In this document: piece by piece, positions 20,560-43,389 of the stretch | Layout: each line of letters starts with the position of its first letter | How positions within the stretch are numbered: position 1 is the first letter of the stretch | DNA from: Rhodotorula mucilaginosa | Taxonomy: Eukaryota; Basidiomycota; Microbotryomycetes; Sporidiobolales; Sporidiobolaceae | Length of the DNA: 64,000 bases | Direction: 5' to 3' | Assembly (NCBI GenBank): GCA_034406715.1 | Contig: CP137865.1 | Coordinates: 248,001 to 312,000, forward strand | Position numbers and translations under genes: made by a program | The notes under the pieces: generated by a model | Database searches by the model: none | What the model was told of the DNA's origin: nothing | The model's input: only the letters and a program-made list of their open reading frames with translations

Positions 20560-23500
20560 ATGCCTCCGCGCAAGAAGGCGTCGCCGGGCAAGGCCAAGAA
20601 GCGCCAGCGCCGCAACTCGGCCGGGTCCGACTCGGACTCGTACGACGACCCGAACGAGGGCAAAGGCCAACTCGACCTGACCCTCCCGCCGCTCTACAAA
20701 CTCGACGAGATCTTTAGCCACATGGTCTCGCGCGAGGCGGACGAGTTGGCCGCCCTGTTCAAGAAACTCGGACGCCCGCTCCGCGTCGCGACCATGTGTT
20801 CCGGAACCGAGTCGCCCATCCTCGCCCTCCGGCTCATGTCGCGCGCGCTCGAAGCCCAGACCGGAGTCTGCGCCGAGATCGACCACGTCTTTTCCGCCGA
20901 GATCGAACCCTTCAAGCAGGCCTACATCGAGCGCAACTTTGCGCCGCCCCTCTTGTTCCGCGACGTCACGGAACTGTGAGTGCCTTCCACATGAACGATC
21001 ATCCGCTTGCGCGCTCTCTCTCTGACTCTGACGACGAGCATCCTCTCCACCCTGCGTGCAGGCCCAACGACCAGGCTCGTACGGCATACGGTTCGTTCGC
21101 CGAAGTACCCGGCAACGTCGACCTCTTGTGCGTATTCATCTAGGACACTCTCGCACGTGCAACACGCGACTAGTCCTGACGCGTTGCCCCTTCCTCTGCA
21201 GGATTGCTGGCACATCTTGCGTCGACTACTCGAACCTCAATAACAAGCAAAAAGGAATCAACGACGGAGGCGAATCTGGTGCGACGAACAACGACCGAGT
21301 CCGAGCGTGGTCCTTCCGTCCGTCCCACCTAGCTGACGACGCAATTTTTCTTCGCCCCATCAGGTCGCACATTTCATGGCATGCTCGAATACAGCAAGAA
21401 GCACCGAGTCAAGATGATCATCCTCGAGAACGTCTTGAAGGCGCCGTGGAAGGCGGTCGAGGCCAAGTTTGACGAGGCCGGCTATGGCGCACGCTTTGTC
21501 CGCCTCGACACCAAGAAGTACTACATCCCGCACACGCGCACTCGCGGCTGTGAGTTTCTCGCTCCCCTGTCCTGCGCCCAGCCAGCGCAAAGAGTTTACT
21601 GACATCTGTCCGCCGGCGCCTCTAGACCTGATCGCCTTCTTGAAGGAAGGGACCAAGGACGCCAAAAAGTCCTTCTTCGAGAAGCGAGACTCTTCCAACC
21701 TGTCGGCGCACGAGATGGCCGACGAGTGGCAACAACGCGTCAAGGAAGCAGAGCGCGTCGCGTCCGCCCCGACCGAAGCGTTCTTGCTCGGGTCGGACGA
21801 CCCGCGCGTGCACCGCGCGAGGCAGGAACTCGCGTACCAAAAAGTCAACGCGGACGGGAACAAGCGCGCCGCGACCGACTGGGGACGGTGTGAAGTCCGG
21901 CATGCGATCCAGCGGCAGAAGGAGAAGTTGGGAGAGGCGAGGCCGCTCACCAAGTGGTCGGATGGAGGCGCGCCGCCCAAGATGCCGGACGGAGCGTGGC
22001 AGGATTGGGCCGAGACGCAGACGGAACGCGTGCACGACTTGATGGACATTAGTTACCTCCGCCAGGCCAAGCTCGGCGTCGACGTCAGTGCGTAACTCTT
22101 CTCTCTCGCGATCGTTCTTCTCCGCCCCTCTCACTGACGCGATTCCCCCTCGCAGCCGCCAAGTCGGCCGTCTGGAACTTGTCGCAGAACGTCGACCGCA
22201 CGACGGCGTCCAAGCTGTTCGGCATCACGCCCTGCTTGACCCCGAAGGGCCTGCCCTACCTCACCCACCGCGGCGGTCCCATCGTCGGAGTCGAGGCGCT
22301 CGCGCTGCAAGGACTCCCGATCGACGAGCTCTTGCTCACGCGCGAGAGTACCGATCAGTTGTCCGACCTCGCGGGCAACGCCATGTCGTCCACCGTGGTC
22401 GGTACCGCGATGCTGTACGCTCTCCTCGTCGGCGGTCACACGCTCGAACGCGGCGTTGTCGTCAAGGAACCCAAGGCGGGCGAGGATGAAGACGGCGACG
22501 TCGTCATGGATGGGGACAAGCTCCAAAAGGCCGAGAAGAAGGCGCCGCCGACGGACGAAGAGCTCGAGGCTCGGTTCCGCGGCGCGGACCGCCTCGTCGA
22601 ACACCCCGTCGACCTCGCTTCGCACAAGCCGGCGCCCGTCGACCTCCTCGAGCGCGCGCACCGTTCGGCCCGCCGCTGCAGCTGCGAAGGCCGCGAAGAC
22701 ATCTCGGTCCACCCGATCTTGACCTGCGCGAGTTGCGGTCACTCGACCTGCGTGCAGCACAAGGCTCGACCCGAACACAAGTACAAGGACGACTTGGCCG
22801 AGCGCGAGTCGCCGAAAAAGTTTGCCGCCGACTTGCGCGAGATGTTGCCGATGCGGTTGAAGTTGCCCGGCTTTGACCGCGGGACGATCACCAAACTTGT
22901 CGACGAGGCCAAGGAGCAAGGTTCGCCGCTCAACAAGAACTTGCTCGACAAGTACGTCGACATTGTGGTCGACGCGCTCGCCAAGGCCGAGTTCCACTTC
23001 CAGCACACGGACCGTCGCGACTACTGGACAGCGGTGTACGGAGCCGAACAGGCTCGCCTCGACCTGCACTTTGGGCAGACGACCATCGAGTGGCGTCTCT
23101 TTGTCGAGCCGCCTGCCGACCTTGCCGCTCTCGCACCGCTCCGAGTCGCGTTCGAGCAGCCGGTCGCGCGTCTCCAGCTCGCTCCCGGTACAACCGATCT
23201 CCTCGAGGGGACCTGGGCGATGAGCCTCCCCCTCTCGAGCTCGTCCAACACCGTCGAACTCGAGTTCGAGTACGACGGCGATGCCGTGACGGACGCTTCG
23301 TGGCGTGCCAAGATCGAGCTGGTCGACTTTAGGGAGGAAAAGTCGCCGCGTCGGATCAAGGTCAACTTCAACGGCGATGAGACCTTGCTCAACCGTCCGC
23401 TCGACGGCACCTACTTGCGCGAGGAAGACTGCGGCACGCCGACGCACGCGCTCTACCGCCGCGTCGAACCCGCCGAGGAGACCCCGCTCTACTTCTTCTT

Positions 23501-26500
23501 CGACCCGTCGCCGTACCTGGAAAACACGCACGACCGCTTCGTCTTTGCCGAGACGTGCTCTCGCATCCATGGCGCTCGTCCCCTCATCGCCTCGATGCTC
23601 CCCAAGTGGCGTCTCAACCCGTTCAAAGTCGAGAAGGAGCGGACCGAAAACGAAGTCGCCATCCTCCTCGAGCCGGACATGAAGCCCAAGGTCGAGATCT
23701 CGAGCACCTTCCGCCCTCTCAAGGACGTCAAGATCGTCCCGGGAGGTACGGACGTCAACGAGGCGAGCAAATTTGCCACCATCAAGACCGGCGGCAGCCT
23801 CTCGGTCGCCGAGCACAAGTGTCAACAGGCCGAGCTCCTCCTGACCGCGCACGTCCCCCTCGCCAAGTCGCCCTCGCCCGTCTGGGCCAGCGAACACTGG
23901 CACGCCGTCGACCTCCAGCACGAAGGCCCCGAAGTCTTTACCAAGCTCGGCTGGATGCTCGCGCGCATCCCCGACTGGCAGTCGCTCCACGAGTGGCAGT
24001 CCGTCGAAGCCGACAGCGCTCCCGCCGACAACTGCCACGACTGCGCGCCGGCGCCCCCCGTGCTCCAATGGATCCGGCAGCTTGTCGCCAAGCCAAAGTC
24101 GTGGGAAGTCTCGATCACAGCACGTGAAGACGGCAAGCAAGCTGCCGCCTACGAACATGTGAGTCCGTTCCGTGCACGCCAAGGTGGACGAAGGGAAAAG
24201 GAATGCTAATGTTTTCTGCGCCTCTTGACAGTCGCTCAAAAACCGCCCGGAGCCCATCGTCGTCCACACGCGGCAGATCGGCAACGACTTCCAGTTCAAG
24301 GTCGGCTTGAACGTTGTCAGTCTCGCGCACCGGGTCCTCGCCCAGCTTCCGACGCACCGCAACCTCGAGTGCTCGGAACCGAAGGTCGAATGGCGCCTCA
24401 ACTCGACCGCCAACATGGCTCTCGGTCGCGAAAACTCGCACGTGTTTACGCTCTTGAGCAACCGTCACAACCCCGAAGCGGAGAATCCGAGTCGGTTCAA
24501 GAACTACAAGCTGCGTCGGGAGCAGCTTCGCTCGCTTCACTGGATGATCGAGCAGGAGGCCAACCCGAAGCCGTGGATCGAAGAGGAAGTCACCGAGGCG
24601 CTCGTCACGCAGCTCGGCTGGACCGCCGAATGCAAGGCGACGCGCGAAGTCCTGGTCCGTGGCGGTGTCGTTGCCGATGCCGTCGGTTACGGCAAGACCG
24701 CCATCACGCTCGGCCTCATCGCCTCGCGCCGGGAGGCGGACGAGGACTTGCCCGAGGACGATGAGCGGATCCCGATCAAGGCGACGCTCATCGTCGTGCC
24801 GAAGCATCTCTCGCAGCAGTGGCCGGACGAGGTCAAGAAGTTTACACAACCCGCGCTCAAGACGATCATCATCCAGAACCACGCCCACCTCAAAAAGCAC
24901 ACCATCGAAGACTTCCAGGAGGCCGACATTGTCATCGTCTCCGAGTCCCTGTTCACGTCGGACGTGTACTGGCCTTACACGGCCGACTTTGCCGCCTCGC
25001 CGTGTGACATCAAGACCGACAAGAAAGCCGGTCGTTACTTCCGTCACTGTGTCGACGTCGCGATGGACTCGCTTTCCGAGCAGGTTCACCGCCTCCGCGA
25101 AGAAGGCTCTCGCGCGGCGCACAAGGCGCTCACCAAGGCGCGAGCGAGTCGCGACGAAGACTTCGAGAAGGAGTTTGTCATTCCCGAAACTCGCAGAAAA
25201 GCGGTCAGTCTCACCTCGTTTCAGATCCTCACGGGAAGCGATGCTGACTCCTTGTGCTACAGAACAAGATTGCCCTTGAGAAGGGCAAGAAGCCGGCGGC
25301 GCTGCCGCCGAAACCGACCTCGTTCCCTCGGTCTGCTAAGGTCGGCGACGACGAGTGGGGTCTCCTCTCCAGCGCCGCGAAGAACGACTGGACTCAAGTC
25401 AAGGGTCCGCCTCTGGCCGCTTTCTCGTGGGCTCGCGTCGTGCTCGACGAGTTCAGCTACACCGAGGGGGCGTCGCTCGTCGGCATCCACACTTGCCGTG
25501 GACGCGCGCGCTGGATCCTGTCCGGTACCCCGCCGCTCCGCGATTTCTCGGAGGTCAAGTCGTGCGTGTTCTATTCTCCCGTCATTGCTTCCCGCGCGTC
25601 TCGTCTGACATGGACGGTGTTTGCGCATGGCAGGATCGCCTCGTTGCTCAACATCCACCTCGGTATCGACGACCAGAACGAGGGTGTCGCAGACCAGGTC
25701 GTCATCCGGAACAAGGAGGCAACCAAGGCGGAAGTCTTCCGCTCGTACTGCGACGTTCGCACCAAGGCGTGGCACGCAAACCGTGACCGCGTCGCTCAGC
25801 GCTTCCTCGACCAGTTTGCCCGTCAGAACCGCGCCGAGATCGACGAGATCCCCCTCGAGATCGAGCACGTCGGCGTGCGTCTCCCCGGAGCCGAGATGGC
25901 CATCTACCGCGAGCTCGAGCACCACCTGTACTCGCTCGACGTCAACCTGAACAGGCTCACCAAGATCAAGGAGGACAAGCAGAGTGACCGCGACCGCCGC
26001 CTGCGCGAAGCCCTCGGGCAGTCTCAGTCGCCGGAAGAGGCGCTCTTGAAGCGGTGTTCGCACTTCACGCTCGACCTCGACGAAACCCTCCTCAAAGGCG
26101 ACGAAGCGCCTGATGTCTGCGACTTCATTCACGGCCTCCGTGAGCAGCAGCTCGCCGACTGCAAACGGGAACTCAAGTACAAAGTCCTCGCCGCCTCGTT
26201 CATGCATCGTCAGGCGAAGAAAAAGGAGTACTACAAACTCTCGAACGTGGAGAATGAGCACTTCCGTGCGTGGATCCAACGTGTCGAAAAGGGAGAAGGC
26301 GCGGGCGACGCAAGCGCGGAAAAAGTCCTCCGCACTCTGCTGAAGGAGTGCGGCTGCTCCTCCGAGTCTATCGGCAAGCCGGTCAATGCGGAGGACAAGC
26401 ACCGCCCCGAGGACGTCGCCAACTTCCTCGCCAAACCGGCGAAAGCTGACAGCGATCTCGACTACATCATCGGCAGGACGACGATCATCCGCGACGCGAC

Positions 26501-28713
26501 CGTTGGCCTCAACCGCTTGGTCCGCGAGCTGGTCGGTCGGATCCGCTCCGCTCGCTACTTCGGTACGGTTCGCGAGATTCTTCGCAAGGAGGGCGACGAC
26601 GAGGAGCTCGCCGTCCTCTCGTGCTGCGGTCACTTTGGTCCCGCCGCCGCAGTCAAAGCGGCAGTGCACCGGGGCAAGTGCATCGACGACTCGTGCGGCG
26701 CTCAGGTCTTCAATGAGAACGTCCTGACGGGCGAGGCGCTCGGAACCGACCGCAGCTCTGGCCACTACGGCTACAAGCTCGAGACGCTCGTGACGTTGAT
26801 CAAGCAGACCCCGAAGGACGACCGCGTCCTCGTCTTTGTGCAGTTCGAGGACCTCTTCGACAAGGTTCACGAGGCGCTCGCCCGCTACGAGATCCGCACC
26901 GAGATCCTGCAAGGCACCGCGGTTGCGCAGGCCAAGACTCTCACGTCGTTCCAGCAGAAGAAGGGCGCCAAGGTCCTCCTTCTCAAGGCGACCGATTCGT
27001 CCTCATCCGGAGCCAACTTGACGATGGCGAACTGGGCCTTCTTCGTGTCGCCGCTTTTGACCGACTCGAAGGCCAAGTACAAGGCGTAAGTCGAGCTTCC
27101 GCTTCACTTCGTGTATCGGTACTGACTTGTCTGGGAACCGTTTCAGTCTGTCGACTCAAGCGATCGGTCGTATTCACCGTTACGGCCAGGTCAAGACGGC
27201 CAAGATCGTGCACCTCCTCACGCACGAGACGAAGGACGTTCCGATCTACGCCAACATGAACGACCTCGCCGAGGACGACGTGCGCGGCTTGATCGCCAAG
27301 CGCAAAGAGATTGTGCCGCCGAAGCGCGAGCGCACCGGCGAGTATATCTGCCGCACGAAGAAGGAGTCCAAGAAGAAGGCGTCGCCTAAGAAGCAGAAGA
27401 AGGCTGCGAGCGACGACGAGGCGGAGGAGGAAGACGACGACGCGGACGAGGACGACAGCGATCCCGACAGCGACAACAGCCCGATTGCTCGCAAGCCCGC
27501 CGCGAAGCGCGCCACCAACGTCAAGAAGCCCGCTGGCCGGGGTGGGAAGAAGGCCCAGTCGATCGTCATTTCGGACGAAGAGAGTGAGGGCGAAATGTCG
27601 GCCGAAAGCAGCGAAGAAGAGGAGCCGGAGCTCTCGGACGATGAAGAGAGTAGCGAGGACGAACGGCCGAAGAAGGTGAGTCTGCCGCCGCCTTTTCTTT
27701 TCGACTCCCGCCGGCACTTGAGACTGATGACTCGGGTCCTTGCGAACAGAAGAAGGCCACCCAGATCAAGAAGAAGCCGGAGGACGACTACTCTGCCAGC
27801 GAGGATGAGGATCTCGCAGCCGCTGCCGCTTCGCCGTCTCGCAGGTTGCCGCGCCGGTCCGCTGCCGCCACGGCGAAGCCGATCATCATCGACTCGGAGG
27901 AGGAGGAGAGCGAAGACGACGAAGCGACGAAGGTTACGGCCACCAAACAGAAGTCTTCGGTTTCGGCAAGCAAGGCCAAGGGCAAGGCTCCCGCGGCTCA
28001 GGTGAGGCCCCATTCCGCTTTCAGGTGCTTGCGACCCATCGATTGACATGCTCGTATTCTCGCAGGACTCGAAGAAGCGACGTGTCATCGCAGACTCGGA
28101 CGATGAAGAGGACGAGGAGCCGGCAGCGCCAAAGTCTTCCTCGTCTCGCCCTAAAGCCGCCACCACCCCTGCTCCCAAGAAGGCCAAGACGTCGACTGTT
28201 CCCAAGGCGGCTACCTCTTCAAAGTCGTCGAAGACGACCAAGATCAGCGGTGTCTTTGACAGTCTCGAGATTCCGTCGCCGAAGGCCAAGAAGCAGGCGC
28301 AGCTGTACTCCTTCTGGAAGAAGGATCAGGCTGCCAAGGATGCAGCTCCGCCACCCGTTCGTGAGAACAAGCGCAAGGCCGAGGCTGACGCTCCGGCCGA
28401 GGACAAGGAGGCCGTCGTTCCGAAGAAGGCGAGGCAGGCCTCTCCGGCGGCCGAGGCTCCTCGCGAGGCCTCGGCGGCGCCGGCCGAAGCCGTCGCCGCT
28501 GACGACGTTGACGCCAGCGCTGGTGTCGAAGAAGCCGAGCAGGACTCGAACAAGGCTTCGACGCCTTCCGTCAACGGCAGCGACGAAACTTCGGGGAACG
28601 GCGACGCGGCGGTTGGTACCGCTCTCACTACGCCGGCCGACGAGCTCGACAAGCGTCTTGGTGACGACGTCGAAGAGGAGCTCGCCGAGGTGGCTGCGGA
28701 GGAGGAGGTTTGA
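20560..28713 (+). CDS. DNMT5: DNMT5-type DNA cytosine-5 methyltransferase fused to a RING/SNF2 ATPase
   Basis: ATP-dependent CpG methyltransferase that, in Cryptococcus, maintains methylation on hemimethylated DNA. Twelve exons join in phase (first 20560-20975; largest 22156-24158; last 28066-28713) to 2,453 residues, close to known DNMT5 length. Methyltransferase motifs: I at about 77-86 (VATMCSGTESP); IV with catalytic Cys at about 167 (IAGTSCVDYSNLNNKQKG); VI (IILENV, about 205-210); VIII (HTRTRGY); X (GNAMSSTVVGTAML, about 477). A Cys-rich cluster follows at about 577-602 (CSCEGRED...CASCGHSTC). SNF2 part: Walker A VADAVGYGKTAITLG (about 1222), DEAH-box equivalent VVLDEFSY (about 1455), RWILSGTPPL, a RING-like insert (LSCCGHF...CIDDSCG, about 1822-1855), and helicase motif VI QAIGRIHRYGQ (about 1985). 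The tail of about 450 residues is Lys/Ser/acid-rich. The N-terminus has only about 70 residues before motif I and no chromodomain, unlike the Cryptococcus enzyme. Confidence 0.95.
28294..28317 (+). other. Candidate PIP box in the DNMT5 tail
   Basis: Residues about 2315-2322 read QAQLYSFW, flanked by KK on both sides. This fits the PCNA-interacting pattern Q-x-x-[ILM]-x-x-[FYW]-[FYW], with Trp in the last place instead of the commoner Phe or Tyr. It sits in an otherwise disordered basic/acidic tail, the usual setting for PIP boxes. Seen directly; PCNA binding is inferred. Confidence 0.55.
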
Positions 28714-28996
28714 TTGGGGGTTTCCTTCGCTTGACGCTTGACGATTCTGTACCGGTACTCTCTTTTGGGCGCGTCTATCTCTCTCTCTCTTGCCTGTGTA
28801 TTGCGTCTCACATGTTCACTCTGCAATCTATCGCTTGCTTGCAACCATATCCAGCCGGAGGGACTTTGGTCGGAGATTGACGGAGTTAGGCGCTTCCGAG
28901 CTCAGACTCGCCCTTTTGATCTTTTGCACCGCCTCGTTCCCTTCTGATCCGTCTCCGCTTACACTCTGTCTAGCTACTAAGAGACTGGTTCCAGCG

Positions 28997-31362
28997 ATGT
29001 CGGCTACAGCTTCGCCAGTAGCGAGTACCTCGGCCGCGGCGATCGAAGCAAAGAAGCGCAAACGCAAGCGATCTCACCGCAAGAGCAACGGCAACGGCGG
29101 CGACGACAACGCTTCCACCGCAGCGCCTGCTGAGCCTAAGCAGCCCGAGCCGGCAGACGACGATGTCGAGCCGCTGATCGAGCCCGAGTTCGAGCCGGCA
29201 CCCGAAGAGACGGCGGCGGAGCGCAAGGCAAAGGCCAAAGACTTGAAGCGAAAGGGCAAGCAGGAGGGAGCGCCCGTCGCGTTCGAGACCGAGCAGGAGG
29301 GACACCAGGGCGCTGCGAACGGTACGGGGGACGCGGCGACCGACGCGCTCGCGCTCATGACGGGCGCAAAAGCCGCTCCGGAACCGAAAACGACCGAGTT
29401 CTCGTCGATCGACCTGAGCGAGGGGACGCGCAAGGCGATCGAGGGAATGGGCTTCAAGAACATGACCGAGGTGCAGGCACGGACGATTCCGCCTCTGTTG
29501 GCAGGCAAGGACGTTCTCGGCGCGGCCAAGACGGGTTCCGGCAAGACGCTCGCGTTCCTGATCCCGGCCGTCGAGATGCTCTACAAGCTCAAGTTCAAGC
29601 CGAGAAATGGTGGGTCTGATTCCTTTTGCTGGCTTTTGACGACGTGCAGTCCTCTGACTCGCGACCTCCATGCAGGAACCGGCGCCATCGTCGTCTCCCC
29701 GACGCGAGAGCTCGCCTTGCAGATCTTCGGAGTCGCCAAGGAGCTCTGCGAGCACCACAACCAGACTTTTGCGATCGTCATGGGCGGCGCGAACCGGAAG
29801 GCAGAGGCCGAGAAGCTCGCCAAGGGCGTCAACTTGCTCATCGCCACTCCGGGACGATTGCTCGACCACTTGCAGGTTCGTCTGCCGGGTCATCTCTCCG
29901 TGCGAAACCAATTCTGACATCATTTGCTTGCCACAGAACACGAAGGGATTTGTCTTCTCGAACTTGCGCGCTCTGATCATTGACGAGGCCGACCGGATTC
30001 TCGAAATCGGGTTCGAAGACGAGATGCGGCAAATCATCAACATCTTGCCGAAGGGTGCGTTCCAGGGGACCCACCATCGTCTCTTTCTGCAGAGAGACTG
30101 ACTGCCTCCACCTCGACTCACAGAGAACCGGCAGTCGATGCTCTTCTCGGCGACTCAGACGACCAAGGTCACCGACCTCGCCCGCATGTCGCTTCGTCCC
30201 GGACCTCTGTACATTAACGTCGACACCAAGAGCGAAACGTCGACGGCCAACAACCTCGAACAGGGTTACGTCGTCTGCGATTCGGACAAGCGGTTCCTGC
30301 TCCTGTTCAGCTTCCTCCGGAAAAACCTCAAGAAGAAGGTCATTGTCTTCTTCAGCAGTTGCAAGAGCGTGCAGTACCACGCCGAGCTGCTCAACTACAT
30401 CGACGTGCCGACGCTTGACCTCCATGTACGTCTCTTGCGTGCGTTCAAGTTCGGCATGTCGTACACGGTACTGACCCGGGTCATTCTCTACCGCTCAGGG
30501 CAAGCAAAAACAGCAGAAGCGGACAAACACCTTCTTCGAGTTCAGCAACTCGGAGAAGGGCATCCTCCTCTGTACGGACGTCGCCGCTCGAGGACTCGAC
30601 ATTCCGCGCGTCGACTGGATCATCCAGTTCGACCCGCCCGATGACCCTCGCGACTACATCCACCGCGTCGGTCGTACGGCTCGCGCCGGTAAGGAGGGCA
30701 AGTCGCTCTTGTTCTTGCTCCCTTCCGAACTGGGCTTCCTCCGATTCCTCAAGACGGCCAAGGTCCCCCTCAACGAGTACTCGTTCCCGTCCGACAAGAT
30801 CGCAAACGTGCAGGGCCAGGTGAGTCGAGCATGACGGGGTTCCTGTCCGACGCGATTTTCACACACGTGCTGACGTGAAACGCGTCGTCCTCCCCGCACC
30901 TTCCTCTCACAGCTCGAGAAGCTCATCGCCAAGAACTACTACCTCTCCCAAAGCGCTCGCGACGGCTTCCGCTCCTACATCCAGTCTTACGCCGCCTACT
31001 CGCTCAAGACCATCTTCGACGTCACGCAACTCGACCTCGCCAAGGTCGCCAAGGCGTTCGGTTTCACCACCCCTCCTTCCGTCAACATCAACATCGGCCG
31101 GAGTGCCAAGGGCAAGAAGCGCAAGGACCACAACGGCGTCGAGTCGGACATTGAGAACGCGAGCGACAGCGACGACGACCAGGAGGACGAGGCAGAGACG
31201 GAGCGAGAGCGGCGCGCCAAGATGGCCCGCCGCGGTGGTTCGAACCAGACCAAGCGTCGCGAGATCGAGGGTCGCAAGGCGGAGAAGGACTATTACCGCG
31301 AGCAAGGACGGGAGAAGCTGCAGAACAAGGGACGCGGACAGGGCACGCAGTGGTCGCGGTGA
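28997..31362 (+). CDS. HAS1: HAS1/DDX18 DEAD-box RNA helicase
   Basis: Nucleolar ATP-dependent RNA helicase needed for 40S and 60S ribosome assembly. Six exons (28997-29609, 29676-29875, 29937-30054, 30124-30425, 30499-30819, 30913-31362) join in phase to 667 residues. After a Lys/Arg- and acid-rich N-terminal tail come the Q-motif region [17 protein letters not shown], motif [10 protein letters not shown], Ia PTRELA, Ib [46 protein letters not shown] and [13 protein letters not shown]. The segment [17 protein letters not shown] and the C-terminal [20 protein letters not shown] (first part of the DUF4217 extension) are characteristic of Has1 rather than other DEAD-box proteins. The tail is basic. 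Convergent with the gene at 31621. Confidence 0.96.
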
Positions 31363-31620: not shown

Positions 31621-32704
31621 CTAGTGCACGATCGTCGTGACTGAACCCGTCGGACTTGGCGCTCCGGCAACGGTGACGAACAGGCTGCCAGAGGTAGGGA
31701 GCGACGTCGAGCTCGAGTAGACGGTGAGAGGGGACGACGACAGACTGGCTGGTGCTCCGGTCCCCAGAGTGCCGACGGGAGAAGTCGGGCTCTGGCTTCC
31801 TGGAGCGGGACCGAGGGACGGCGTGGCAGGGACGAAAACACTCGGCGTCGTGAAGAACGGATCGGCGCCGAGTGCAGCAGTCGGGCCTATCGAAGGCTGT
31901 GTCAGCTTTTTCGTTGCGACAGAACGAAGTTGGATTGCTCACTCTGGCGAGAGTCGCTGTGCACGACTGCGGTCTGCGCATCGACCGTCGAGAGCTTGAA
32001 GATCCTTGGGCCAGTTGAAGTCGGACTGTGTTTCCTCGACGGCTTTCCCCCTATCGGGGGGCATACCGAGTCAGCTGCGAGCGGTACACGGAAAAGTCTT
32101 CTGGAGAGAGAACTTGCCGCCGAATCCCATTCCGAGTCGCGAATCCTGGCCGAAAACGCCTTCTGGTGCAGCGCCTTCCGCCGTTCCGTCGTCTCCCATG
32201 CTTGAACCAGCTGGCGGCTGGAGCGATGCGTCATCGTTACTCGAACTGAGATCAAGAACGTTTTCGGATCCTCCGATGGCTTCCGAGACACGATTCAAGT
32301 CGTCCAAGGCCGAATTGTCGTCTGGGGAGCAGCAAACGGTCAGCAGGATCTACCGCACCCTGTGCAGTCGGCGATCGGTACCTGCTTACCTTGGGCGGTA
32401 CCGTTCTGCCTCTTAAAGAGCGAACGTCCCGAGGTGCCGAAGACGAGACGAGGATTGCGGCCAAATCCAAAAGCCGACTTTTCAAGTCCCGCGCCGACGT
32501 CGAGGTTTCCGGCACCGACAGCGAGTGAACCCATGGAAAGGACGTCGCTAAAGTCCACCAGATCTGTCACCAGAGTGACCGTTATAAGCGCGCCGCTTTT
32601 CCCGAGCTCGCTTCTTGCCCGGCAGGTGGGAAGAGGGCTTACGTGAGTGGTGGGAGGTTGACAAAGGAGGAGAGAGGAGAGTGATGAGATTCGAGAAGGC
32701 CCAT
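31621..32704 (-). CDS. Unknown protein with Ser/Thr/Pro-rich C-terminus; first exon inside the tandem array
   Basis: I do not recognise this gene. Five exons join with consistent phase: a possible first exon 32643-32704 (MGLLESHHSPLSSFVNLPPL), then DVLSMGSLAVGAGNLDVGAG...GRSLFKRQNGT, then a segment rich in Asp/Ser/Gly (LDDLNRVSEAIGG; PPAGSSMGDDGT), then PRIFKLSTVDAQTAVVH, and a last exon (31621-31886) rich in Ser/Thr/Pro/Gly with many possible O-glycosylation sites. There is a Lys-Arg site (FKRQ) that Kex2-like proteases could cut. No signal peptide or transmembrane segment is evident in the exons found, so secretion is uncertain. The first exon falls within the repeat unit and its 3' edge coincides with the array boundary at 32643, so the true start may lie elsewhere. 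Confidence 0.45.
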
Positions 32705-33408
32705 TTTCCCGCAGTCGACGTCCGTCACCCTACAGACAGCGCAGGAAAGCTTCGTCCTGCGACGCAAGAGAGCATTCAGAGACTAGTCTTGCAGGTCCGG
32801 TTCCGGCTGAGAAAGAAATGAGTAAGATGGAAATACTGAAATCGAGGACTTCCTCCCCTTTCCAAAAGGATCAAGGCATAGTCGTGAAGAGCAAGCAGTG
32901 ACGAGTGCTTGGTCGCAGAAGGCCCTCCTGCTCAGATCACTCTCATTCTCTGCAGATTCACGAGCATAGCTGACGAGGCCGAGCGGCCTCTCGGAAAACT
33001 CTCGTGAAACCTCTCCTCCTCTTCCTCCCCACCTTACAACCTTCACGGCATCCAACATCTCTAGGATCGACTTACGCTGTCTCGTTTAGACTACGGCATC
33101 GATCCTGCGAGCTACATCCGAGCGGCGAACATAAAAGGTTCATCAAGAGGAAAGGAAAATCTAGAGGGGAGCCCAAACGAGGAGGGTTATGAGAGGGGAG
33201 GGGAATTAAGAGCGAAGTCACATCACAACGAATCGAGAGTAGTAAGATGGTAACAGGTTGTGCAAAGTCGGGTGTGATGAAGATGAAGGTATGCAGAGGA
33301 GGCCCAAAAAGAGTTACGAAAAGGCGAAAAGGGGAGAGAAAGGATGAGAGCGAGGGCCCTCTATCCCGGCAATCAAACGCCGGAAGCGAATCCGATGAGT
33401 CTCGGAGA

Positions 33409-33817
33409 CTATTGGTCGACCTCTCGAGGCGTAAACTTCAGGCGGCACTGATCCTTGGGGAACAGAGTGGCGATGATCTGGATTTCCTCAGACTCTGGCG
33501 TCTTTTCATGAACCCAGTCCATGAGGCCGGCGGCGGTCCCGATTGTCGCACACATGTGGTGATATACATAGCTCTGACCTGTATTTTCAGTCCAACAAGA
33601 GTCAGCAGGGAGGAGAACCTTGAGGGCGAAGAAGGGGCGGAGTCCTTCCCCTCCTTCCAAAATCACCAAAAACGGCCTTACCGATGCACTTGTGCGCCCC
33701 CGCACCGAATACGAGCCAATTTTTCGAGTCGGATCCGTCTGAGTTGGCCCCGCCCGGCATAAAGCGCTCCGGGATGAAGGATTCCGGGTCCGGGTAGACT
33801 TCGGGGTCGTGCAGAGA
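33409..33817 (-). pseudogene. Duplicated ERG5 terminal exons, copy 1
   Basis: Carries the haem-binding exon (SLHDPEVYPDPESFIPERFM through FGAGAHKCIG), its GTAAGG donor, the acceptor and the last exon ending REVDQ and a stop. All splice signals, including the upstream GCAG acceptor, are kept, so it could serve as an alternative 3' end, but it lacks the rest of ERG5. Confidence 0.85.
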
Positions 33818-33854
33818 CTGCGGCAGCTGGAATCCGGACTGAAAATGTCAAGTT

Positions 33855-33910
33855 CTCAAGTCTTGATTAACATTTTCCAGGCCTCAAGTCTTGATTAACA
33901 TTTTCCAGGC
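33855..33910. repeat. 28-base direct repeat x2 in spacer of unit 1
   Basis: Two perfect adjacent copies of a 28-base AT-rich motif beginning CTCAAGTCTTGATTAAC. The same pair is at 35594-35649; unit 3 has one copy. Confidence 0.95.
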
Positions 33911-35147
33911 CAACAGAGGTTCAACTAAACTTCAGCCGTCCATCGATGAAGGCTACAATACGGGAGAGCATGTCCCGTTCAATTATTTTCACCTTCCCCT
34001 CTCCCGCAGCTTGCTAATGCCGCGTTTGTCCAGAATCCATAACCTCTACATTCGTTGGACATGACAGGCTGAGATTCCAGAGAATCATGCCAAGACCAAG
34101 CGGCGTTGTTGTGGCGTTTTCTTCCCCAACGCTGGGAAGCTCAGGAAACGAGGCTCTTCGAGCTGTGCAAATTCTCTTCAAATGCCCTCTCCGATCTCTC
34201 TTAGCTCACGCGACACACACTCGAATTGATGCCTGCCGCTGGTACAGTTTCCGTCTGTATTCCTACAATTTGGTAACCTGCCTCATCTCTCCCTCAGTTT
34301 TCCAGCAGCTTTACCTCTTAGGCAAACACTGCTGTTTGCGGCCGTTGTAGCAAGCATGCGTAATGCTCACAGCGGATAGTTGTGAGTGGTGGGAGGTTGA
34401 CAAAGGAGGAGAGAGGAGAGTGATGAGATTCGAGAAGGCCCATTTTCCCGCAGTCGACGTCCGTCACCCTACAGACAGCGCAGGAAAGCTTCGTCCTGCG
34501 ACGCAAGAGAGCATTCAGAGACTAGTCTTGCAGGTCCGGTTCCGGCTGAGAAAGAAATGAGTAAGATGGAAATACTGAAATCGAGGACTTCCTCCCCTTT
34601 CCAAAAGGATCAAGGCATAGTCGTGAAGAGCAAGCAGTGACGAGTGCTTGGTCGCAGAAGGCCCTCCTGCTCAGATCACTCTCATTCTCTGCAGATTCAC
34701 GAGCATAGCTGACGAGGCCGAGCGGCCTCTCGGAAAACTCTCGTGAAACCTCTCCTCCTCTTCCTCCCCACCTTACGACCTTCACGGCATCCAACATCTC
34801 TAGGATCGACTTACGCTGTCTCGTTTAGACTACGGCATCGATCCTGCGAGCTACATCCGAGCGGCGAACATAAAAGGTTCATCGAGAGGAAAGGAAAATC
34901 TAGAGGGGAGCCCAAACGAGGAGGGTTATGAGAGGGGAGGGGAATTAAGAGCGAAGTCACATCACAACGAATCGAGAGTAGTAAGATGGTAACAGGTTGT
35001 GCAAAGTCGGGTGTGATGAAGATGAAGGTATGCAGAGGAGGCCCAAAAAGAGTTACGAAAAGGCGAAAAGGGGAGAGAAAGGATGAGAGCGAGGGCCCTC
35101 TATCCCGGCAATCAAACGCCGGAAGCGAATCCGATGAGTCTCGGAGA

Positions 35148-35556
35148 CTATTGGTCGACCTCTCGAGGCGTAAACTTCAGGCGGCACTGATCCTTGGGGA
35201 ACAGAGTGGCGATGATCTGGATTTCCTCAGACTCTGGCGTCTTTTCATGAACCCAGTCCATGAGGCCGGCGGCGGTCCCGATTGTCGCGCACATGTGGTG
35301 ATATACATAGCTCTGACCTGTATTTTCAGTCCAACAAGAGTCAGCAGGGAGGAGAACCTTGAGGGCGAAGAAGGGGCGGAGTCCTTCCCCTCCTTCCAAA
35401 ATCACCAAAAACGGCCTTACCGATGCACTTGTGCGCCCCCGCACCGAATACGAGCCAATTTTTCGAGTCGGATCCGTCTGAGTTGGCCCCGCCCGGCATA
35501 AAGCGCTCCGGGATGAAGGATTCCGGGTCCGGGTAGACTTCGGGGTCGTGCAGAGA
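35148..35556 (-). pseudogene. Duplicated ERG5 terminal exons, copy 2
   Basis: Same two exons and splice signals as copy 1, with no coding change from the intact gene seen by eye. Confidence 0.85.
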
Positions 35557-35593
35557 CTGCGGCAGCTGGAATCCGGACTGAAAATGTCAAGTT

Positions 35594-35649
35594 CTCAAGT
35601 CTTGATTAACATTTTCCAGGCCTCAAGTCTTGATTAACATTTTCCAGGC
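35594..35649. repeat. 28-base direct repeat x2 in spacer of unit 2
   Basis: Same pair of 28-base motifs as in unit 1. Confidence 0.95.
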
Positions 35650-36120
35650 CAACAGAGGTTCAACTAAACTTCAGCCGTCCATCGATGAAGGCTACAATAC
35701 GGGAGAGCATGTCCCGTTCAATTATTTTCACCTTCCCCTCTCCCGCAGCTTGCTAATGCCGCGTTTGTCCAGAATCCATAACCTCTACATTCGTTGGACA
35801 TGACAGGCTGAGATTCCAGAGAATCATGCCAAGACCAAGCGGCGTTGTTGTGGCGTTTTCTTCCCCAACGCTGGGAAGCTCAGGAAACGAGGCTCTTCGA
35901 GCTGTGCAAATTCTCTTCAAATGCCCTCTCCGATCTCTCTTAGCTCACGCGACACACACTCGAATTGATGCCTGCCGCTGGTACAGTTTCCGTCTGTATT
36001 CCTACAATTTGGTAACCTGCCTCATCTCTCCCTCAGTTTTCCAGCAGCTTTACCTCTTAGGCAAACACTGCTGTTTGCGGCCGTTGTAGCAAGCATGCGT
36101 AATGCTCACAGCGGATAGTT

Positions 36121-37831
36121 GTGAGTGGTGGGAGGTTGACAAAGGAGGAGAGAGGAGAGTGATGAGATTCGAGAAGGCCCATTTTCCCGCAGTCGACGTC
36201 CGTCACCCTACAGACAGCGCAGGAAAGCTTCGTCCTGCGACGCAAGAGAGCATTCAGAGACTAGTCTTGCAGGTCCGGTTCCGGCTGAGAAAGAAATGAG
36301 TAAGATGGAAATACTGAAATCGAGGACTTCCTCCCCTTTCCAAAAGGATCAAGGCATAGTCGTGAAGAGCAAGCAGTGACGAGTGCTTGGTCGCAGAAGG
36401 CCCTCCTGCTCAGATCACTCTCATTCTCTGCAGATTCACGAGCATAGCTGACGAGGCCGAGCGGCCTCTCGGAAAACTCTCGTGAAACCTCTCCTCCTCT
36501 TCCTCCCCACCTTACAACCTTCACGGCATCCAACATCTCTAGGATCGACTTACGCTGTCTCGTTTAGACTACGGCATCGATCCTGCGAGCTACATCCGAG
36601 CGGCGAACATAAAAGGTTCATCAAGAGGAAAGGAAAATCTAGAGGGGAGCCCAAACGAGGAGGGTTATGAGAGGGGAGGGGAATTAAGAGCGAAGTCACA
36701 TCACAACGAATCGAGAGTAGTAAGATGGTAACAGGTTGTGCAAAGTCGGGTGTGATGAAGATGAAGGTATGCAGAGGAGGCCCAAAAAGAGTTACGAAAA
36801 GGCGAAAAGGGGAGAGAAAGGATGAGAGCGAGGGCCCTCTATCCCGGCAATCAAACGCCGGAAGCGAATCCGATGAGTCTCGGAGACTATTGGTCGACCT
36901 CTCGAGGCGTAAACTTCAGGCGGCACTGATCCTTGGGGAACAGAGTGGCGATGATCTGGATTGCCTCAGACTCTGGCGTCTTTTCATGAACCCAGTCCAT
37001 GAGGCCGGCGGCGGTCCCGATTGTCGCGCACATGTGGTGATATACATAGCTCTGACCTGTATTTTCAGTCCAACAAGAGTCAGCAGGGAGGAGAACCTTG
37101 AGGGCGAAGAAGGGGCGGAGTCCTTCCCCTCCTTCCAAAATCACCAAAAACGGCCTTACCGATGCACTTGTGCGCCCCCGCACCGAATACGAGCCAATTT
37201 TTCGAGTCGGATCCGTCTGAGTTGGCCCCGCCCGGCATAAAGCGCTCCGGGATGAAGGATTCCGGGTCCGGGTAGACTTCGGGGTCGTGCAGAGACTGCG
37301 GCAGCTGGAATCCGGACTGAAAATGTCAAGTTCTCAAGTCTTGATTAACATTTTCCAGGCCAACAGAGGTTCAACTAAACTTCAGCCGTCCATCGATGAA
37401 GGCTACAATACGGGAGAGCATGTCCCGTTCAATTATTTTCACCTTCCCCTCTCCCGCAGCTTGCTAATGCCGCGTTTGTCCAGAATCCATAACCTCTACA
37501 TTCGTTGGACATGACAGGCTGAGATTCCAGAGAATCATGCCAAGACCAAGCGGCGTTGTTGTGGCGTTTTCTTCCCCAACGCTGGGAAGCTCAGGAAACG
37601 AGGCTCTTCGAGCTGTGCAAATTCTCTTCAAATGCCCTCTCCGATCTCTCTTAGCTCACGCGACACACACTCGAATTGATGCCTGCCGCTGGTACAGTTT
37701 CCGTCTGTATTCCTACAATTTGGTAACCTGCCTCATCTCTCCCTCAGTTTTCCAGCAGCTTTACCTCTTAGGCAAACACTGCTGTTTGCGGCCGTTGTAG
37801 CAAGCATGCGTAATGCTCACAGCGGATAGTT
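36121..37831. repeat. Array unit 3, 28 bases shorter
   Basis: Same as unit 1 at the two alternating sites. It has only one copy of the 28-base repeat in the spacer, which explains the 1711-base length. One private T-to-G change near 36963 replaces Glu by Ala in the ERG5-derived C-terminal segment. Confidence 0.9.
36887..37295 (-). pseudogene. Duplicated ERG5 terminal exons, copy 3
   Basis: Same two exons. One residue differs from the intact gene in the C-terminal segment (TPESEAIQ instead of TPESEEIQ). Confidence 0.85.
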
Positions 37832-39010
37832 GTGAGTGGTGGGAGGTTGACAAAGGAGGAGAGAGGAGAGTGATGAGATTCGAGAAGGCCCATTTTCCCG
37901 CAGTCGACGTCCGTCACCCTACAGACAGCGCAGGAAAGCTTCGTCCTGCGACGCAAGAGAGCATTCAGAGACTAGTCTTGCAGGTCCGGTTCCGGCTGAG
38001 AAAGAAATGAGTAAGATGGAAATACTGAAATCGAGGACTTCCTCCCCTTTCCAAAAGGATCAAGGCATAGTCGCGAAGAGCAAGCAGTGACGAGTGCTTG
38101 GTCGCAGAAGGCCCTCCTGCTCAGATCACTCTCATTCTCTGCAGATTCACGAGCATAGCTGACGAGGCCGAGCGGCCTCTCGGAAAACTCTCGTGAAACC
38201 TCTCCTCCTCTTCCTCCCCACCTTACGACCTTCACGGCATCCAACATCTCTAGGATCGACTTACACTGTCTCGTTTAGACTACGGCATCGATCCTGCGAG
38301 CTACATCCGAGCGGCGAACATAAAAGGTTCATCGAGAGGAAAGGAAAATCTAGAGGGGAGCCCAAACGAGGAGGGTTATGAGAGGGGAGGGGAATTAAGA
38401 GCGAAGTCACATCACAACGAATCGAGAGTAGTAAGATGGTAACAGGTTGTGCAAAGTCGGGTGTGATGAAGATGAAGGTATGCAGAGGAGGCCCAAAAAG
38501 AGTTACGAAAAGGCGAAAAGGGGAGAGAAAGGATGAGAGCGAGGGCCCTCTATCCCGGCAATCAAACGCTGGAAGCGAATCCGATGAGTCTCGGAGACTA
38601 TTGGTCGACCTCTCGAGGCGTAAACTTCAGGCGGCACTGATCCTTGGGGAACAGAGTGGCGATGATCTGGATTTCCTCAGACTCTGGCGTCTTTTCATGA
38701 ACCCAGTCCATGAGGCCGGCGGCGGTCCCGATTGTCGCGCACATGTGGTGATATACATAGCTCTGACCTGTATTTTCAGTCCAACAAGAGTCAGCAGGGA
38801 GGAGAACCTTGAGGGCGAAGAAGGGGCGGAGTCCTTCCCCTCCTTCCAAAATCACCAAAAACGGCCTTACCGATGCACTTGTGCGCCCCCGCACCGAATA
38901 CGAGCCAATTTTTCGAGTCGGATCCGTCTGAGTTGGCCCCGCCCGGCATAAAGCGCTCCGGGATGAAGGATTCCGGGTCCGGGTAGACTTCGGGGTCGTG
39001 CAGAGACTGC
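37832..39010. repeat. Array unit 4, core only, part of the intact ERG5 locus
   Basis: Core without spacer; it runs into the rest of ERG5 at 39011. Private differences from the other three copies: CG where they have TG near 38074, CA where they have CG near 38265, and TG where they have CG near 38570. Confidence 0.9.
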
Positions 39011-40830
39011 AGGAGTTTTCGGATCGAAAAATCAGCTCAGTAGTCTCTTCCGCCCCTTTTTAGTATCTTCGAACCGTTTTCGAGTGCAGAACTTACGTTC
39101 CAGAACGAGGGAATCACCATCGTTCCTTTCGGCACCGTGTAGTCGTCGTTGATCTTGAAGTCCTTCTTCGCGAGATAAGGCACCATGATGACCGGAGGGC
39201 GGTACCGAAGTACCTCCTTCACGGTCGCCATGGTGTACTTCATCTCGTCAAGAAGGGCCAACGAGAGGGGCGATTCGAAATCGCCGGCGCGGACGCGATT
39301 CTGCTCCTCTCGGATTTTGGCGAGCACTTCGGGGTAGTCGGCGAGGAGCTGGAAAGCGAAGGTGATCGAGGACGACATGGCGTCTACAGAGAATAACGAG
39401 TCAGTAAGGGACAGACAGAGATCAGTCTGCCGACGCACCCTGGGAGGCGAAAATGAACGAGAGGAGGACGAGGGCCATCTCCTTGTCGGTAAACTCGCGG
39501 ACCTTGCCCTCGACGATCTGCGACACCCACTCGTCGAGCAAGCAGTCCGGCTCCTTGCCCTTGCGCATCGCGACCTTCGAGTCGGCGGCGGCCTTCATCA
39601 AGTGCTTGACGGCGACCTCGCGCGCGCGGCACGCGTGCCAGACCTTGGTGCCCGGGAACGCAAACGGGAAGTTGACCAACTCCAACGCCTGCGTTATTTG
39701 CCAATATTTCGCCGACACCTCCTTCGCCGCTTCTTCAGGAATGTACGAGCCGCAGAACACGCGGAGGGACGTCATCATGTTGAGGTCGCGGAACTTGAGC
39801 TGGTACGGCTGCGGGTTCGGGTTCGGGTCGGCGAGCCACTCCTTAAAGTGCTGGCGGTAGATCTGGTCCTGGACGCGCAGGTAGATTCTGTAGGCATGCA
39901 CTCTGTCAGATGGCGGTCCATTCGATAATGAAACGAAGGGACGAACTCGAGGGCCTTGGGCGTGAAAAGAACGTTAAGCGATTTGCGGTACTCGTTGTGG
40001 ACCTTGCCGTTCAGGAAAACCCAGTTTTCGGCTGTGCGAAACGAGACCCGTCAACACACGAAGGGCAAAACGAACCGAAAGAAACAACACGCACGCAGGA
40101 GGATGTCCTTGGCCGACTTGACGAGACACGGCTCGGTGTAGGTCGACGAGTTGAGGATCTTGCGAGCATAGTCGGTCGTCGAGGCAATAACGATGTAGCT
40201 GTTTCGCGGAAAACGAGGGGGTAAGAATGCGTGCAGAGCCGCGTGAGAAGATAAGAAACGGGAGCGGAACGGACATGTTGAAGACGCTGTTGGAAACGAT
40301 GCCGGCGTCAGCTCGGATAGCGCCGAATAGACTCAGAACCGACTCACGAAACGGATGCGAGCGGCGTCGACCAGGCTATGTGCGCGATCACGAGGTGAGC
40401 AGGTTCCGAGCGAAAAGCGACGGGAACAACAACATTTCGATACTCACAGCGCTTGTACGCCTGCATCGTCGGGTTCAGCGACTCGGCAAATTGTCCGATG
40501 ATGGGCTGCAGGTATGCATCACGTCAGCTTCGAGGATTGAGAGGATGCAGCGGGAGATTGGCCTTTGTTGACGCGTACGATTTGCCATTGCTTGCCCGGC
40601 AAGTGTCGCTTCCTCGACCTCCACAGCGCCTGCTCGGCGATCAACAACGCGACGACGACGCAGAGGACCGACGTCCATACGGTCGCGGGCTTGGCGTCCT
40701 TGAGCGAGGGCAGGTTGAGGCCGTTCAAGCCGAAGCGGTCGAGCGCGTCTCCGAGCGGCGAGACGGTGCTCTGCGGTGCCGATACGTACTGCGACGAGTG
40801 GTGCACCATCCTAGACGCGTAGCCCTCCAT
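38598..40830 (-). CDS. ERG5: ERG5 (CYP61), sterol C-22 desaturase
   Basis: Cytochrome P450 of the ER that introduces the C-22 double bond in ergosterol synthesis. The ATG at 40830 (MEGYASRMVHHSS) leads to an N-terminal membrane anchor (SVLCVVVALLIAEQALW), the hinge KRHLPGKQW, and the CYP61-specific segment PIIGQFAESLNPTMQAYKR. Later exons give SYIVIAST, EPCLVKSAKDIL, the I-helix region ending FASQ then DAMSSSITF, the K-helix ExxR in VKEVLRYRPPVIMVP, VPKGTMVIPSFWN, then SLHDPEVYPDPESFIPERF and the haem loop FGAGAHKCIG with the axial Cys. It ends in TPESEEIQIIATLFPKDQCR and LKFTPREVDQ, typical of Erg5. About nine or ten exons. Its last two exons (38598-39006) are the fourth copy of the tandem array. 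Confidence 0.95.
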
Positions 40831-43389
40831 GGGTATACAGGACAGACAGACACTGGCTATAGCGAGACCTCTGGTGTCCAGAAAAAAAGTCGAACCACTC
40901 AGCTCGCTGCTTTTTCGGAAGCGCCGTGCCGACAAATCCGAACCCTCGGCCTTCGCGCCGCCCGCGATCGACCACTTCTTCGCAAAAACTCAATCTCTCG
41001 ACGTGCGCAGTACACACTTCCACTCGACAATCGTTCACACATCTCTACGAAGAGACAGTTATTGCAGCTTACGAGAGCGCGTGGCAGCACGGTCCTCCCC
41101 GATCGATCGCGGCTCGTGCGCTCAACATGCGCTCAGGCCTTCTGCCCTCCGCGGCGACGTTCGAACGGGCTCAACCAGCATAGGCGCGGTATTCACCCGG
41201 CACCATCTTGTTCGGACTCTGCGCAGGTAGCCGCGATGCTCCGAGTCGGATGGGAATACCTGCTCCGAGTCGGAACCGACAACCGTTTTCGAGAGTCGGT
41301 TCTCGGATTTCAAGCAAGGCTTGTGGCAGGATGCTCGCCCGCGCGCTCGTTCGCCAGCTTTGAGTCGCACCAAGCGCGTTTGAGATCGGTGTACCGTTCC
41401 TTTGGCGGGAACAGCCGACCAAAGCCAGCCAGGTCTGATGCTCCACTTGGCTGCCAAGCTGCAGGGACAACCGGCTGCACGGCGCTCATTCTTTCAGAGC
41501 CGCCGCGGCAGCGAAGAGCAGTACAGGTCCCAGGAGCATCGGATAGGCGAGTTACACGCCAGCAGCGGCCGTGTCAGTATCGCCGCGCGGGGAGAGCTCG
41601 CTCGTGGGCGACGGCGAGCTCCTTGATGTGAGGGGCTTCTGATTCGAGCGGCATCGCGCTCCGGGGGCTAGCAGTGAGCTTTGACGTCCTTCGACTCATG
41701 GCGAATAGGACTTCTGCGAGTGGCGACGGGGTCGAGTGAGGCGGTCGGGGCGCGTCGAACAACACACGGGAGGCGGAACAGGATGCGACCGGCGCGGGAG
41801 CGATTGATCGGAACTGATCGCGTAGCAAAGAGCAAAGGAGCGAGTTCGTCTTGGGCAGCCTATTGTCGCGAGTGCAACGTGTATCGTACGGTAGCGGAGC
41901 GAGCCAGCGCCGAGAAAAGCTTCGCAAACTGTTCAAGCAACGGAGGGGAGGCGTTCAGATGCTCGCCGCGCGCGTGAGACGACCCTCGTGTCGCCCGTCT
42001 CTTCTCTTCTTCTCTCCATCGCCAGGAGATGAACGAAGGGTCGCTACTTATCGCAGCACCGCGCACAGCGAGTCATCGCGTACTCGCTTGACCTCTTTAG
42101 CTGTGGGAAAAGGTGCGCTACAATACCCGCCTGCCCCCTCCGAGCTGACCTGAGCTGACCCGAAACCCCTTTCCACAGTCCCCGGACAGAACACTATGCC
42201 CTCTTCGCCCGCTTGCAGCCCTTCTCGAGCTCGTCTGCCTTGGCGGTGCTGCTTCGCGGCACGCACCGTCATCCCACTCTGTTCGACCTCGTCGCCCTCC
42301 GATGCTGCAGCTCGCGTCGGCCCGCCCGGAAAGCGGCCGTCCTTGATCCGGCGGAGCCCGGGTCGACGCGCAGCTGTCGTCTGGAGGGAAGAGTCGGCAT
42401 GCAGCGATGCATTCTCGAGGGGGGTGAGGGCAAGGTCAGCAGCGTTGCCGGCTCGGGAGGAGGACAGGAGCGCGGTCGTCAAGGGTTCTGAGCTTGCCTC
42501 GGGATTCTCGGCTTCCGCCTTCTCCCTTCTCTTCGAGCCTTGAGCTCGTCGCTGGCCTTGGAGGTGCGAACCCGTCGGCAGCGTGCTCGGGCGCCCTTCC
42601 ACGCTGCGTTGTCACATCCCGTCGTCCTCGTCGGGTCGCGTCTCTCCTCGGCTCGTTCGCTTCTAGGACGCGGTCGAGGAGCTGCTCGGTCGTGCATGGC
42701 TCGACTGCTCTGAGGGGACTTCACTGCACCAGCGAAGATATGAGCTGCCCCGATCCTCCCCTCCAGTCGTGTTCGCACGATCGAGCAGAGTGATCCGACA
42801 TTCATGGGGACCGGGATCACTGACCCAGTTTTGGCGCCCTCGAAGCCGGCCGGCGACCCCGTTCGTCATTCCTCTACAGTTATGCGACCGCCTCGTCGGC
42901 TTTACAGGCCGACGAGGTAACGGAATGGGGCTTACTCTCGATCATCTCCTGCTTTCCCGACGGCTTTTCTTTTCGCGATGTCGACCTGCTTTTCGCTCTT
43001 GGGTACGTCGATCGCGCAGCATGGGCGGCTTGACTTTGGCGTCGGAGCACTCGGCTCGCCGTATCACACAACGGCGAAGTCGGCGTTCGCTTTCGACCCT
43101 GGTCTCGTCATCCCCTCGCTCGCGTCGTCGTCGCCTTGAGCGCTCGACTCTCGTGACCGAATGACGCCCCTCGCTCGATTTTCAGAAGGATGAAAACCAT
43201 TGGCAACAACTACGAATTTCTTCATCCTAAGCGGTCGCCCCCTACGGGGGGTGGCCGTATGAGGAGACATTTTTAACCCTGAAACCTGAAAATCGAGCGA
43301 GGCGGGCTTCTGTAGCTTTTCTTTTTCCTCGCAACTTGATTCGTCTACACTTCTTTCGTCTCTGTTTCTGTTCACCTTCGAGGGTATAC
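40831..43389. other. 2.6 kb with no firmly supported gene
   Basis: Separates the divergent ERG5 and F-BAR/RhoGAP genes, so it holds both promoters. Open frames on both strands (for example a short one near 41577-41700 on the minus strand with PHIKELAVAHERALPAR, and frames around 42190-42600) are uninterrupted only over 100-180 codons, have no recognisable motif and no phase-consistent splice extension. An unrecognised small gene is possible. Confidence 0.4.
43169..43302. repeat. 134-base inverted-repeat element upstream of the RhoGAP gene
   Basis: Perfect 17-base arms at 43169-43185 and 43286-43302 (CCTCGCTCGATTTTCAG and its complement). Inside are an 8-base inverted pair (AGGATGAA / TTCATCCT) and a CCCCCTACGGGGGG hairpin. 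It could fold as RNA or be a small non-autonomous element; neither is proven. Confidence 0.6.

Follow-up and report, generated by a model that had tools for sequence, protein, structure and literature searches.

CpG transitions dominate the differences among tandem copies of the ERG5 3' end in Rhodotorula mucilaginosa and recur in other repeats of the genome

Results

A tandem array derived from the 3' end of ERG5

We analyzed a 64-kb stretch of Rhodotorula mucilaginosa contig CP137865.1 (the window; 64,000 nucleotides), in which a tandem array at 32643-39010 adjoins ERG5, the gene for the C-22 sterol desaturase CYP61, with a gene for the DNA methyltransferase DNMT5 lying nearby. The array is built of four 1179-bp core copies (A; c1-c4) and three spacers (X; X1-X3) in the order A X A X A X A (Table 1). 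The core corresponds to the minus-strand 3' end of ERG5 and comprises the exon encoding FGAGAHKCIG, which in the frame of the core we take to be the heme motif, the last exon, and ~770 bp that begin with the stop codon. When the assembly (20.35 Mb, 19 contigs) was searched for P450, the core was matched in all four copies, and more of the gene was found only beyond copy 4, where Pfam p450 matches 39037-39438 and the open frame 39422-39901 has 59 homologues, 7 of which are named sterol 22- or C-22 sterol desaturase. P450 domain, heme motif and orthologue names all agree with ERG5/CYP61. Like this gene the core carries the heme-binding exon and the last exon; unlike it, the array adds three gene tails that lack a gene body. 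Copy c1 (stop codon 33409-33411) is not joined to the ERG5 body, and the stop codon of c4 lies at 38598-38600.

The three spacers do not differ by a single substitution: X1 equals X2, and X3 equals X1 minus one 28-bp unit with 0 mismatches. This unit is present in tandem at 33855-33911 and 35594-35650, i.e. in two copies in X1 and X2, and once in X3. No Rfam family reached its gathering score in a scan of the window. An aromatic-lyase exon comes closest to 1y2m and 1t6j, proteins of Rhodotorula toruloides, without matching either exactly, which fits a Rhodotorula-like yeast. The arrangement left flank-A-X-A-X-A-X-A-ERG5 is the leftover expected if a circular A+X multimer had integrated by A homology; judged from the same layout, later unequal exchange might also have produced it.

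Table 1. Features of the array and its surroundings (positions in the window)
Feature	Position	Strand	Basis
DNMT5 gene	20561..28713, limits approximate	+	exons read from frames
Open frame with DEAD-box helicase domain, between DNMT5 and array	28790..29917	+	domain match
Core copy c1 (ERG5 3' exons and downstream DNA)	32643..33821	-	alignment; P450 match 33674-33817
Spacer X1, 560 bp, two 28-bp units	33822..34381	.	sequence comparison
Core copy c2	34382..35560	-	alignment; P450 match 35413-35556
Spacer X2, identical to X1	35561..36120	.	sequence comparison
Core copy c3, with transversion at 36963	36121..37299	-	alignment; P450 match 37152-37295
Spacer X3, 532 bp, one 28-bp unit, rest identical to X1	37300..37831	.	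sequence comparison
Core copy c4, joined to ERG5 body	37832..39010	-	alignment, reading frames; P450 match 38863-39006
ERG5 (C-22 sterol desaturase, CYP61) body, exons	39011..40935, outer limit approximate	-	Pfam p450, homologues, frames

Six of seven substitutions among the core copies are CpG transitions

The four cores were aligned by program, giving 1179 gap-free columns, seven of which vary (243, 396, 434, 503, 739, 843 and 908), with pairwise differences ranging from 2 to 6. Six of the variable columns are transitions between CpG and TpG or CpA. The seventh, column 843, is a T/G transversion in copy 3 that replaces a last-exon Glu by Ala. Columns 243, 396, 434, 503 and 739 are located downstream of the stop codon, and column 908 is a synonymous position in the last exon. 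Copy c1 carries the CpG change at 908 (33550) plus one state of 396/503, and c4 carries unique states at 38074, 38265 and 38570. The alignment thus reproduces what the first-pass annotation had counted by eye, namely seven substitutions with a single non-CpG exception near 36963, and it leaves all of the site coordinates given there unchanged except for one pair, 33036/34775, which should read 33038/34777.

Columns 396 and 503 are linked, as both show the pattern c1=c3, c2=c4, pointing to exchange or to a duplicated pair of units. When the changes are polarized by the majority of the four copies, 434, 739 and 908 are CpG losses, 243 would be a gain, and 396 and 503 are tied 2:2. Read on the strand that mutated, the six CpG sites comprise two in a TCG, three in a GCG and one in a CCG context, in accordance with the earlier count of two TCG sites.

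CpG had been described as a small share of positions, which proved too strong a statement: bases in CpG make up 13.2% of the core and 21.4% of the window, and since the direction of change is mostly unset, the fair share has to count TpG and CpA too, so that 23.7% of the core positions are able to make CpG-type transitions. Even so, the strong CpG skew claimed for the array holds up. The probability of at least six CpG transitions among seven changes is 9.4e-5 for uniform mutation with a transition:transversion ratio of 2:1 and 0.001 if every change is a transition; it rises to 0.085 with a tenfold and to 0.3 with a twentyfold faster rate of CpG transitions. Chance would have some room because there are seven events only and the linked sites could have a conversion history in common, but with P values of 0.001-0.003 under fair nulls and support from other repeats (see below) we regard it as a most improbable explanation and reject it. 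The CpG skew in the array is beyond chance, resting on seven events.

The observed/expected ratio (o/e) of CpG is 0.87 in the array and 1.24-1.28 in its flanks, and compared with GC-matched windows it is lower in two of three bins (0.87 vs 1.08 and 0.93 vs 1.22), the lowest GC bin (0.87 vs 0.89) offering a single window for comparison. A noncoding control chosen by lack of open reading frames comprised 2316 bp only and is weak. In core A the o/e is 0.92 for CpG, 0.85 for TpG+CpA and 0.80 for GpC, and copy 4 is similarly low in CpG (0.91). Because GpC is also low and TpG+CpA is not raised, the low CpG content of the core looks like the composition of a gene tail rather than accumulated decay; the combination of CpG deficit and TpG/CpA surplus that marks a methylated, decaying repeat was not found in core A.

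A similar CpG skew in other young repeats of the genome

For comparison we used retrotransposon loci cut out via RVT_1, RVT_2 and rve searches. Young repeats were counted in groups of at least 99.6% identity, with one count per genomic place and with difference-free pairs adding nothing. In five other near-identical repeat groups 12 of 19 substitutions are CpG transitions: 3/3 in the RVT_1 copies C1/C15/C16, 3/3 in the contig-15 array units L022-L028, 3/7 in the C11 195/201-kb pair, 2/5 in the C11 848/853-kb pair, and 1/1 in L017/L052. Locus L030 (98.7% identity) was left out of this count; against L022 it gives 6/31. The young repeats do not differ significantly from the array (12/19 vs 6/7, Fisher P 0.37). 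A similar skew is thus found outside the array, and the idea that it marks this locus is not supported.

The array on contig 15 (matches at 171763-195365; L022-L028 and L030) consists of eight head-to-tail 3326-bp units with a reverse transcriptase fragment. Seven of these units are nearly identical, and their three substitutions are all CpG transitions.

In pairs of less than 99.5% identity the CpG shares range from 0.14 to 0.62, below that of the array. Among seven copia copies (L059-L064, L071) single-copy transitions are found at 46 of 357 CpG columns vs 26 of 595 columns with C or G outside CpG (P 3e-6). This family therefore has a ~3-fold excess at CpG, and the array proportion (6/7) is higher than that of the copia single-copy changes (59/137 CpG-type, P 0.046). 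Comparisons of degenerate with younger copies point the same way, e.g. L042/L053, where transitions have altered 33 of 168 CpG positions and 17 of the 268 remaining C/G positions. Raised CpG transition is thus a trait of several repeat groups of this genome and not of the ERG5 array alone.

The excess might in principle be an artifact, with errors in the consensus or in base calling at modified CpG sites persisting in repeats beyond the reach of short-read polishing. Long reads are known to be error-prone at modified bases, and the array differences do sit in near-identical repeats. The 3-fold CpG excess, however, is also seen in copia copies that are about 3-10% apart and thus easier to polish, and the linked c1=c3, c2=c4 pattern at two sites looks inherited, so we consider this explanation improbable.

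No evident TCG preference of the RIP-like kind in the array

A TpCpG pattern resembling repeat-induced point mutation (RIP) has been described for transposons of Pucciniomycotina, according to PMC5381629, which cites Horns et al. 2012; PMC12210899, in contrast, reports that RIP-like signatures are absent from Pucciniomycotina. In our seven copia copies single-copy C>T changes occur at 25 of 106 TCG vs 21 of 251 other NCG columns (P 2e-4), a bias that resembles this mark. The TTG/TCG ratio reaches 1.29-1.99 in L047, L048, L054, L078 and L081, five degenerate loci that represent four places, and elsewhere it is 1.08 (L039), 0.94 (L056) and 1.31 in a young contig-15 unit (L023). A high ratio is therefore not confined to the five relic loci, nor does every degenerate locus have one.

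The ERG5 array shares with the Pucciniomycotina pattern the C>T changes in CpG of repeats but differs from it in having no evident TCG preference. Its two TCG sites among six match the expectation from site counts (2.12), only two columns are changed although the four cores hold 220 TCG sites, and TTG/TCG is 0.48 in the core and 0.43 in the rest of the window. In comparison with the copia copies the TCG share is not significantly lower (2/6 vs 25/46, P 0.41), whereas the GCG share is higher (3/6 vs 5/46, P 0.040), and three GCG among six sites have a probability of 0.011 under copia context rates, GCG being the NCG context that mutates least in the copia alignment of the rve region. The proposal that plain CpG decay fits better than TCG-biased mutation is hence favored weakly, by the GCG sites and not by the TCG count. 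A TCG bias like that of RIP-like hypermutation is present in the copia copies, and some loci have a raised TTG/TCG ratio, but the core bears no visible mark of such a process, and in view of the contexts of the six array sites and the core ratio we consider it very unlikely, and reject it, as the cause of the array differences.

A scenario of two mutation regimes is conceivable: young repeats, among them the ERG5 array and the 3.3-kb array on contig 15, would lose CpG in all contexts by deamination of 5-methylcytosine (5mC), and later receive TCG-biased RIP-like hits. The TCG share is 5/18 in young repeats plus array vs 25/46 in the copia copies (P 0.09), and we regard the scenario as unlikely.

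Spacer X (GC 0.49) has 26 TTG/CAA to 10 TCG/CGA, a ratio of 2.6 that exceeds those of all 2827 overlapping 560-bp windows in the rest of the window (maximum 1.15) and is like that of some decayed transposon loci. Judged by this ratio, the spacer looks like DNA that decayed as a repeat, and it would have done so before the amplification, as the three X copies agree. A search of the genome with spacer X matched only its own three places, an absence of further matches that does not prove rarity, and a small-word search against the retrotransposon loci and the masked window gave nothing at E 1.

DNMT5 is encoded next to the array

The first-pass annotation had placed a DNMT5 gene near the array, and this identification is well founded. 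Three open frames match PDB 7r76 (label 'Rad8'), presumably Cryptococcus Dnmt5, and sister entries only, with E values of 6.3e-34, 7.5e-96 and 4.1e-104. A short exon encodes a 26-residue stretch that includes IAGTSCVDYSNLNN (14 residues), identical to 7r76, which we take to be the catalytic motif, and SNF2 and helicase domains follow downstream. The gene thus combines a C5-methyltransferase domain with an SNF2 ATPase in a manner similar to Cryptococcus Dnmt5. Pfam DNA_methylase had no match in the genome or in the five DNMT5 frames scanned, the first exon not being part of that search; as DNMT5 itself was not picked up, the genome search with this profile is uninformative. The same applies to a genome search with DNMT1-RFD, in which neither a target nor a control was matched.

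Exons encoding an SRA domain are present on contig 1 at 1285503-1286193 (L083, L084) and might belong to a UHRF1-like partner of DNMT5. The machinery for CpG methylation is probably present, given these genes. PMC13297926 describes the DNMT5 of Basidiomycota as an enzyme of CpG maintenance that in Cryptococcus works with the help of a UHRF1 homologue. The R. mucilaginosa genome resembles this system in that it has a clear relative of DNMT5, with the 14-residue motif unchanged, as well as a gene with an SRA domain; it differs in that methylation is here a prediction from genes, and a gene neighborhood does not reveal targets.

The DNMT5 enzyme acts in trans, so the nearness of its gene says nothing about the array as a target, and the earlier use of that nearness as a pointer to array methylation has no bearing. 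Methylation specific to the array, as deduced from the neighboring gene, is rejected on this ground and because the skew is also found in other repeats.

Discussion

The CpG skew among the ERG5 array copies is probably the outcome of ordinary fast CpG mutation, with nothing special to the array or to the adjacent methylase gene. The 3' end of ERG5 would have been amplified in tandem together with a spacer of other origin, and the copies would now be old enough to have gathered about seven substitutions, most of them CpG transitions because in many repeats of this genome cytosines in CpG appear to change at a higher rate than the remaining bases. As the likeliest cause of this higher rate we propose deamination of 5mC, maintained by DNMT5 with its putative SRA-domain partner and acting on repeats generally rather than on the ERG5 array in particular; for this cause we see an even chance. 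It would involve methylation of the sites, now or earlier, the chemistry of deamination and a partnership of the SRA protein with DNMT5, all of which we infer.

Decay of methylated repeats resembles our observations in that the differences between copies are dominated by CpG transitions. Several points weigh against the proposed general deamination. Core A has no TpG/CpA surplus, and two of the three majority-polarized CpG losses sit in copy 4, the copy that is joined to the gene. No majority direction of loss is seen at three of the six array sites, and at the other three the direction is given only by a majority of four copies. One repeat family shows hardly any excess (transitions at 11 of 902 CpG vs 13 of 1350 other C/G columns) and another a weak one (14 of 619 vs 17 of 1303). 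Even with rates from the copia copies of the same genome, six or more CpG transitions among seven have a probability of 0.003. In addition, our comparisons cover repeats, and the CpG excess may hold for all DNA.

This last point leads to the main rival of 5mC deamination, a genome-wide, methylation-independent mutability of CpG that repeats merely reveal. Unmethylated CpG reportedly mutates at a raised rate in Rhodotorula toruloides. The presence of the skew in other young repeats is compatible with this explanation, as is the finding that most transposon loci are not CpG-poor (o/e about 1.07-1.45), though the young contig-15 units have values of 0.86-0.93. In fission yeast the CpG mutation rate is raised without methylation, according to PMC4704713, which also counts against our reading; of 44 CpG mutations given there 23 are C>A and 18 C>T, and the paper cites another study with a C>T excess. 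On the other side, unique DNA of the window has a CpG o/e of ~1.2, which would be hard to keep under strong permanent CpG loss, and several loci with degenerate copies are CpG-poor. Ten such loci have whole-locus CpG o/e values of 0.72-0.95 and TpG/CpA values of 1.03-1.25 (window: 1.21 and 0.91), but these take in 1.5-kb flanks, and in the transposon-matching middles (117-540 bp) the CpG o/e lies between 0.74 and 1.19, which again weakens the case for decay. Taken together, we think methylation-independent mutability rather unlikely, 5mC deamination in repeats at large being our preferred explanation.

What remains of the original proposal is the CpG skew, the presence of DNMT5 and, weakly, the preference for plain CpG over TCG-biased change, whereas array-specificity is not supported and nearness has no bearing. 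No Rhodotorula methylome was among the literature matches listed. If 5mC is not confirmed, the array would be a caution that a CpG skew among few changes does not demonstrate methylation, a caution that is strongest for GC-rich genomes with their abundant CpG. Should 5mC be confirmed, the array would constitute a gene-derived, non-transposon target that allows CpG decay beside a gene to be counted in each copy separately.

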